From Bacillota bacterium (lineage in GTDB: Bacteria; Bacillota; Bacilli; Alicyclobacillales; SLC66), in the NCBI GenBank assembly GCA_021846285.1, contig JAJZCB010000004.1:1-64000 (forward strand): a stretch of 64,000 bases of DNA. The letters run 5' to 3'. Shown in pieces: positions 19,614 to 22,475 of this stretch. The stretch's first letter is position 1, and each line of letters opens with the position of its first letter. The notes beneath the pieces were generated by a model. It searched no databases, was not told the origin of the DNA, and saw only the letters and a list, made by a program, of their open reading frames with translations. The translations under genes and the position numbers were made by a program.

Positions 19614-19688
19614 GCCGGAACCGTATGCTGTGCCGCTTCTCAAACACGGCTGCGCCGAACTCGCCTCGGCACAGCATACGGTTCCGGC
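19614..19688. repeat. Palindromic repeat, copy A (22-bp stem)
   Basis: A perfect 22-bp inverted repeat (outer GCCGGAACC/GGTTCCGGC, inner TATGCTGTGCCG/CGGCACAGCATA) encloses 31 nt with a second small hairpin CGGC-TGC-GCCG. Two related copies are at 22325-22390 and 22405-22475. It lies between the surface protein gene and the thioredoxin-like gene and could be a terminator or REP-type element. Confidence 0.75.
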
Positions 19689-19736: not shown

Positions 19737-20039
19737 CTAAGATCCTACAAACGCACGGACTTGAGGCTCGGGCCGGAAGCCAACGAGTTGATTGGCCACC
19801 TTCCCCTTCTTGAACAGGAGCAAAGTGGGCAATCCCATGACGCCATACGGCTGCGCAATGCCTGGATGTTTGTCCGTGTCCACATATAAGAACTGCACTC
19901 CGGTTGTCTCTTTTTCAACCTTTTCAACGACTGGACCCAGCCGCCTGCAATACGGTCACCAGTCAGCTGTAAAAAATGCCACGACCGAACCGCCGGCAGA
20001 CACGATTTGTTTAAATTCCGATTCATTCACGACCTTCAT
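19737..20039 (-). CDS. Thioredoxin-like protein with in-frame TGA at the active site (probable selenoprotein)
   Basis: Reading from ATG 20039 (AAAGGGG site 8 nt upstream) gives a complete 100-residue thioredoxin-fold protein. It begins MKVVNESEFKQIVSAGGSVV, has A-F-F-T-A-D-W before the active site, then F-L-Y-V-D-T-D-K-H-P, the cis-Pro loop M-G-L-P-T-L-L-L-F, and K-K-G-K-V. The only interruption is TGA at 19956-19958 (codon 28), exactly where the first Cys of W-C-P-Y-C should be: W-TGA-P-Y-C. The frame stays open for 72 codons after it to TAG at 19737. A SECIS-like hairpin follows the TGA (separate entry). The simplest reading is selenocysteine insertion giving W-U-P-Y-C, a cytoplasmic thiol/selenol oxidoreductase. 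The alternative is a single-base nonsense mutation of TGC or TGT. Confidence 0.75.
19928..19943 (-). promoter_or_regulatory. Candidate bacterial SECIS element
   Basis: Starting 12 nt after the in-frame TGA, the coding strand reads CGGCTG-GGTC-CAGTCG: a 6-bp stem (one G-U pair) closed by a GGUC loop, extendable by two G-U pairs. The loop begins 18 nt after TGA, the same distance and the same GGUC loop as in the E. coli fdhF SECIS (from memory of that element). It would bind SelB. Confidence 0.65.
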
Positions 20040-20083
20040 GACACGATCCCCTTTCAAGGCAAGTATGGAACTTTCCCTGTTCC

Positions 20084-20092
20084 AGTATATCA
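20084..20092 (-). promoter_or_regulatory. Extended -10 promoter of the thioredoxin-like gene
   Basis: Minus strand TGATATACT, an extended -10 (TGn plus TATACT), 45 bp before ATG 20039. The same TGATATAYTGG motif precedes two other genes (23168 and 24399). Confidence 0.45.
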
Positions 20093-22324: not shown

Positions 22325-22390
22325 GATCATATGCTGTGCCCCTGCTCAAACACGGCTACGCCGAACTCGCGACGGGCGCAGCATACGATC
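22325..22390. repeat. Palindromic repeat, copy B
   Basis: A 17-bp stem (GATCATATGCTGTGCCC and its partner, one mismatch and one wobble) around an inner hairpin CGGC-TAC-GCCG. It begins 27 bp after the stop of the upstream plus-strand gene. Confidence 0.7.
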
Positions 22391-22404: not shown

Positions 22405-22475
22405 GATTCATCATATGCTGCGCCCCTGCTCAGACACGGTTGCGCCGAACTCGCGACGGGCGCAGCATATGAATC
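22405..22475. repeat. Palindromic repeat, copy C
   Basis: A 14-bp perfect stem (CATATGCTGCGCCC / GGGCGCAGCATATG), flanked by GGATT and AATCC, with inner hairpin CGGT-TGC-GCCG. In tandem with copy B. Base changes between copies keep the pairing. Confidence 0.7.

Follow-up and report, generated by a model that had tools for sequence, protein, structure and literature searches.

The locus at positions 19737..20039 of the 64,000-nucleotide stretch analysed here (the window) raises the question of whether a thioredoxin frame interrupted by TGA at its active site is a functional gene whose UGA is read as selenocysteine (Sec). The window belongs to a genome assembly of 3.89 Mb in 164 contigs with an estimated completeness of 98%. 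Based on comparison of sequences, we assign a probability of about 94% to the locus being a functional selenoprotein gene.

The interrupted thioredoxin frame

The gene is encoded by the minus strand, left unstated in the first-pass annotation, and runs from an ATG at 20039-20037 through 100 codons to a TAG stop at 19739-19737. The sole in-frame stop is the TGA of codon 28 (19956..19958) in the context FFTADW-U-PYCRRLGPVV, with 72 open codons following. Reading of the frame bore out the annotation on both counts, that the only interruption is at the first active-site Cys position and that 72 codons remain open beyond it. The match to the thioredoxin family PF00085 runs straight through the TGA (69.5 bits, profile positions 2-101 of 103, one TGA), and in a separate domain test the protein scored 78 bits against a gathering cut-off of 23.5. 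The in-frame UGA occupies the first position of a U-x-x-C motif, here U-P-Y-C; every Sec-type member of the family has its TGA at this codon, and the TGC of codon 31 (19947..19949), encoding the resolving Cys, is invariant in the family alignment. Modeled with Cys in place of Sec, the product adopts a complete thioredoxin fold with a mean pLDDT of 96 and a TM score of about 0.9 against solved thioredoxins. Standard gene callers end or mis-frame the gene at the TGA.

A Shine-Dalgarno-like AAAGGGG (20048..20054), located 8 nt before the ATG, is conserved in the window's genome and in the two other genomes of the same genus (G001 and G002). Further upstream, a leader element at 20066..20089 comprises a possible -10 sequence (TATACT) overlapping the palindrome TGGAAC-N7-GTTCCA and is kept in G001 and mostly in G002. 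The element is a candidate promoter or operator, a function that is a guess; a promoter and terminator scan at the locus found neither. The neighboring genes in the window encode a cupredoxin-like protein and a YcdB/S-layer-type protein.

A frame interrupted by TGA is also what would be expected if the thioredoxin gene had decayed to a pseudogene and its active site had acquired a nonsense mutation by chance, for which the first-pass annotation had proposed random stops and frameshifts in close relatives as the sign. The proteins of G001 and G002 are 98 and 97% identical to that of the window, and both genes keep the frame and the same single TGA with no other lesion. The gene is identical to that of G002 at 282 of 303 bases (93%) between unrelated flanks, with the 5' leader and its Shine-Dalgarno sequence also kept despite the unrelated further flanks. 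The 21 codons that differ are distributed on both sides of the TGA, and 19 of the differences are synonymous and only 2 change the amino acid; by this computation the gene is shown to be under purifying selection. A distant homologue (G124) does carry a further TAG, which replaces the Trp codon directly before the TGA with the hairpin described below intact, and which may be either a recent lesion or a sequencing error. Nevertheless, since over 20 distinct homologues, spread over many Bacilli families, retain the same TGA and the hairpin is conserved, the comparative data leave a pseudogene with next to no likelihood and it was rejected.

A SECIS-type hairpin downstream of the UGA

Folding and family conservation identified a SECIS-type hairpin at 19926..19945, with an 8-bp stem that includes a conserved 6-bp core (19928-19943) and the loop GGUC (19934-19937), in agreement with the stem-loop and 18-nt distance from the UGA reported in the first-pass annotation. 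The bSECIS model, as quoted in PMC13188914, specifies an apical loop of 3-9 nt, an upper stem of 4-16 bp, G in the first two loop positions, a UGA-to-loop distance of 16-37 nt and a minimum free energy of at most -7.5 kcal/mol. The hairpin falls within all of these limits, with a loop of 4 nt, a stem of 8 bp, G in the first two positions of GGUC, a spacer of 18 nt and a free energy of -9.5 kcal/mol. Taken alone, the hairpin was no better than chance against dinucleotide shuffles, 36 of 200 folding as well, and an equal stem was obtained in 233 of 5000 synonymous recodings; the hairpin of this single gene was accordingly given no weight as evidence.

The homologues were more informative. Nine distinct sequences, that of the window gene included, share this hairpin (type A), for which pairing was found in 54/54 cells. 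A second hairpin (type B; GAGACC-GGU-GGUCUC), with the loop 5 nt further on, is present in 17 sequences and is paired in 102/102 cells. In 5000 trials of random synonymous codon choice, in which relatedness is not modeled, the maxima were 46 for type A and 67 for type B, and the observed pairing was never reached. All 17 of the 17 type B genes share the codons CCG GTG GTC, and at most of the other conserved residues codon use is mixed. Compensatory changes were found in both types, GC to AU in type A and CG to UA in type B, the latter in the diverged gene of G091, with moderate support from column shuffles (29/500 and 38/500, respectively). None of the codon differences from G002 touches the 6-bp core. 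The conservation of the hairpin across diverged homologues is far beyond that attributable to synonymous codon choice. Since types A and B encode almost the same stretch, L-x-P-V-V, the results indicate that one family uses two hairpins, and the family provides a compact natural data set for the evolution of SECIS hairpins under coding constraint.

The selenocysteine pathway of the window's genome

The first-pass annotation had inferred Sec insertion and named selA, selB, selC and selD as the genes to look for. Intact selA and selB were found in the window's genome together with two different selD genes (C33:15619-16545 and C112:2510-3427), so that the absence of the pathway, which that annotation held would tell against its claim, does not apply. 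Each selD contains one TGA located at the U-x-x-K active site (SGUGCKIGP and GAUACKVGS) and followed by a hairpin, results suggesting that the genome uses UGA as Sec elsewhere too. The second selD adjoins a gene for a LysR regulator that resembles the selenium-associated family and scores under the family cut-off.

The remaining component, selC (tRNA-Sec), was not found in the assembly by the Rfam model, by a 1-kb query from G001 or by a motif pattern, the T-arm of which is too strict for this lineage; the sel loci also gave no Rfam matches (E up to 0.1). In contrast, ARAGORN identified tRNA-Sec in 9 of 9 relatives checked that carry the TGA gene, these being both same-genus genomes and seven others. 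The selC genes of G001 and G002 differ by one base, and one 154-bp stretch containing selC is 98% identical. We interpret the missing selC as a gap in the assembly. A different reading is that the lineage does have a true selenoprotein gene here and this strain has recently lost selC, such that its own copy is no longer fully expressed, as the three failed searches in an assembly estimated at 98% completeness would allow. However, selC is only one gene of 97 nt in an assembly of 164 contigs and is present in both same-genus genomes, and there is no decay of selA, selB, either selD or the Sec-thioredoxin gene, which makes a recent loss very unlikely.

The open frame past the TGA is neutral as to the residue inserted, and the UGA might instead be read as a residue other than Sec through a changed genetic code or readthrough by a Trp or Cys tRNA. 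The other genes of the window end normally at standard stops, and a code change was rejected on the comparative data. Arguing further against any non-Sec reading are the conserved hairpin, the presence of the Sec machinery and the occurrence of all 21 carrier genomes within the 85 genomes containing selA (hypergeometric 9e-16, relatedness ignored). In more distant homologues, aligned as the first-pass annotation had suggested, codon 28 itself is TGA, with Cys in a few cases. A non-Sec residue is therefore exceedingly unlikely, and insertion of Sec is the reading supported by the machinery and the homologues. We propose that the UGA of codon 28 would be decoded as Sec by SelB and tRNA-Sec under the direction of the hairpin, with its spacer of 18 nt before the loop.

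A subfamily of Bacilli and its possible role

Beyond the two same-genus genomes, a protein about 61% identical to that of the window and likewise with TGA was found in G008, and proteins about 39-47% identical with one TGA each were found in six further genomes. Among 399 Bacilli genomes, the best 20 profile matches (162 to 109 bits) all contain TGA, and the match ranked next, at 94 bits, is without any stop. A 21st, more diverged member, that of G091 with the motif T-D-S-U-F-S-C, was confirmed from its sequence. For the distribution beyond Bacilli, 398 genomes sampled from the phylum were searched at E up to 1e-26; the only match with TGA was that of the window's own genome, the other 12 being without a stop. 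The named carriers are Ferroacidibacillus organovorans, Paenibacillus filicis, Planococcus salinus, Aneurinibacillus sp., Sediminibacillus halophilus, S. terrae and Virgibacillus senegalensis. Since G007 belongs to the same taxonomic family as the window and its protein is that of F. organovorans, the window probably derives from a relative of that acidophile, and the gene adds a conserved selenoprotein to an acidophilic lineage of Bacillota. The motif is mostly W-U-P-x-C. In a tree with few columns and many weak forks, the Sec clade includes CPGC (Cys) proteins from Oceanobacillus and Planococcus, the familiar exchange of Sec and Cys. The gene is assigned to a small, conserved and apparently unnamed subfamily in Bacilli genomes that keep the Sec pathway. 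Three homologues have N-G-U-G-P-C in place of D-W-U-P-x-C, with loss of the active-site Trp and the motif U-G-P-C.

Thioredoxins containing Sec are already a known kind. One of PF00085 with U-x-x-C (WP_010956703.1) is listed as experimentally verified (PMC13188914), and the kind is also counted in PMC1794560. The window protein agrees with WP_010956703.1 in fold, in Pfam assignment and in having Sec as the first redox residue; its family is set apart by the motif U-P-x-C, occurrence in Bacilli, a clade of its own and two characteristic hairpins. Ordinary TrxA (TIGR01068) has the same fold, but the window protein has Sec in place of Cys and P-x in place of G-P between the redox residues, scores 81 bits against a cut-off of 96.8, and is about 37% identical to the CGPC thioredoxin encoded at C33:12131-12415 near selA in the same genome. 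The gene for the latter (C33:12122-12421) is located approximately 2 kb upstream of selA, and the arrangement in G001 is similar. SaoT (NF040730) and the HUIPC-motif protein (NF047660) are, like the window protein, small thioredoxin-like selenoproteins with U-x-x-C (PMC13188914); at E up to 0.001, ten family members gave no match to either model. No model of NCBIfam 20.0 reaches its cut-off on the window protein, and no report on the Bacilli subfamily or its host genera was found in open-access papers. By these comparisons we place the window gene in a new subfamily within the known Sec-thioredoxins.

The product is predicted to be a thioredoxin of 100 residues without a signal peptide and with U-P-Y-C as the redox site. 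In thioredoxin chemistry the first active-site residue acts as the nucleophile and the second Cys resolves; Sec at the nucleophile position has a lower pKa and gives faster attack and reduction. Thus, Sec28 would attack the oxidized substrate and Cys31 would resolve the selenenylsulfide. Since a separate, ordinary CGPC thioredoxin is encoded in the genome, the Sec protein is probably a specialized reductase, most likely in selenium metabolism or oxidant defence, and first guesses at its substrates are selenium compounds or oxidized peroxiredoxins.

The gene neighborhoods of relatives are consistent with the first of these roles. The neighbors of the gene in P. filicis, Planococcus, Sediminibacillus and Virgibacillus are genes for a PhnCDE-type ABC transporter, selD, a gene for a family-4 glycosyltransferase that resembles SenB below the cut-off, and one for a polysaccharide deacetylase. 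The transporter binding protein of Sediminibacillus matches a 'putative selenate' model at 172 bits, below the cut-off of 250, and a LysR regulator of P. filicis passes the cut-off of the selenium-associated family. In G142 the island extends further, to tRNA-Sec, selB and selA, all within 10 kb. In those species this selenium island connects the protein with selenium metabolism, and by inference in that of the window; for several Bacilli it associates the Sec-thioredoxin with the uptake of selenium and the synthesis of selenophosphate, a testable role. The island is possibly a pathway for a selenosugar or another small selenium compound. More tentatively, and with the odds somewhat against it, the subfamily, with one codon served by two hairpins, could be dedicated to selenium handling, for example reduction of selenite or selenotrisulfide feeding SelD, within an island that in several relatives unites selD, selB, selA, tRNA-Sec, the selenate-type transporter and the SenB-like glycosyltransferase.

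The window also contains three copies of a repeat with the core CTCAAACACGGCTGCGCCGAACTCGC (19615-19687, 22345-22370 and 22429-22454), with none expected by chance. The copy just downstream of the Sec-thioredoxin gene sits in a 21-bp inverted repeat formed by 19615-19635 with 19667-19687.
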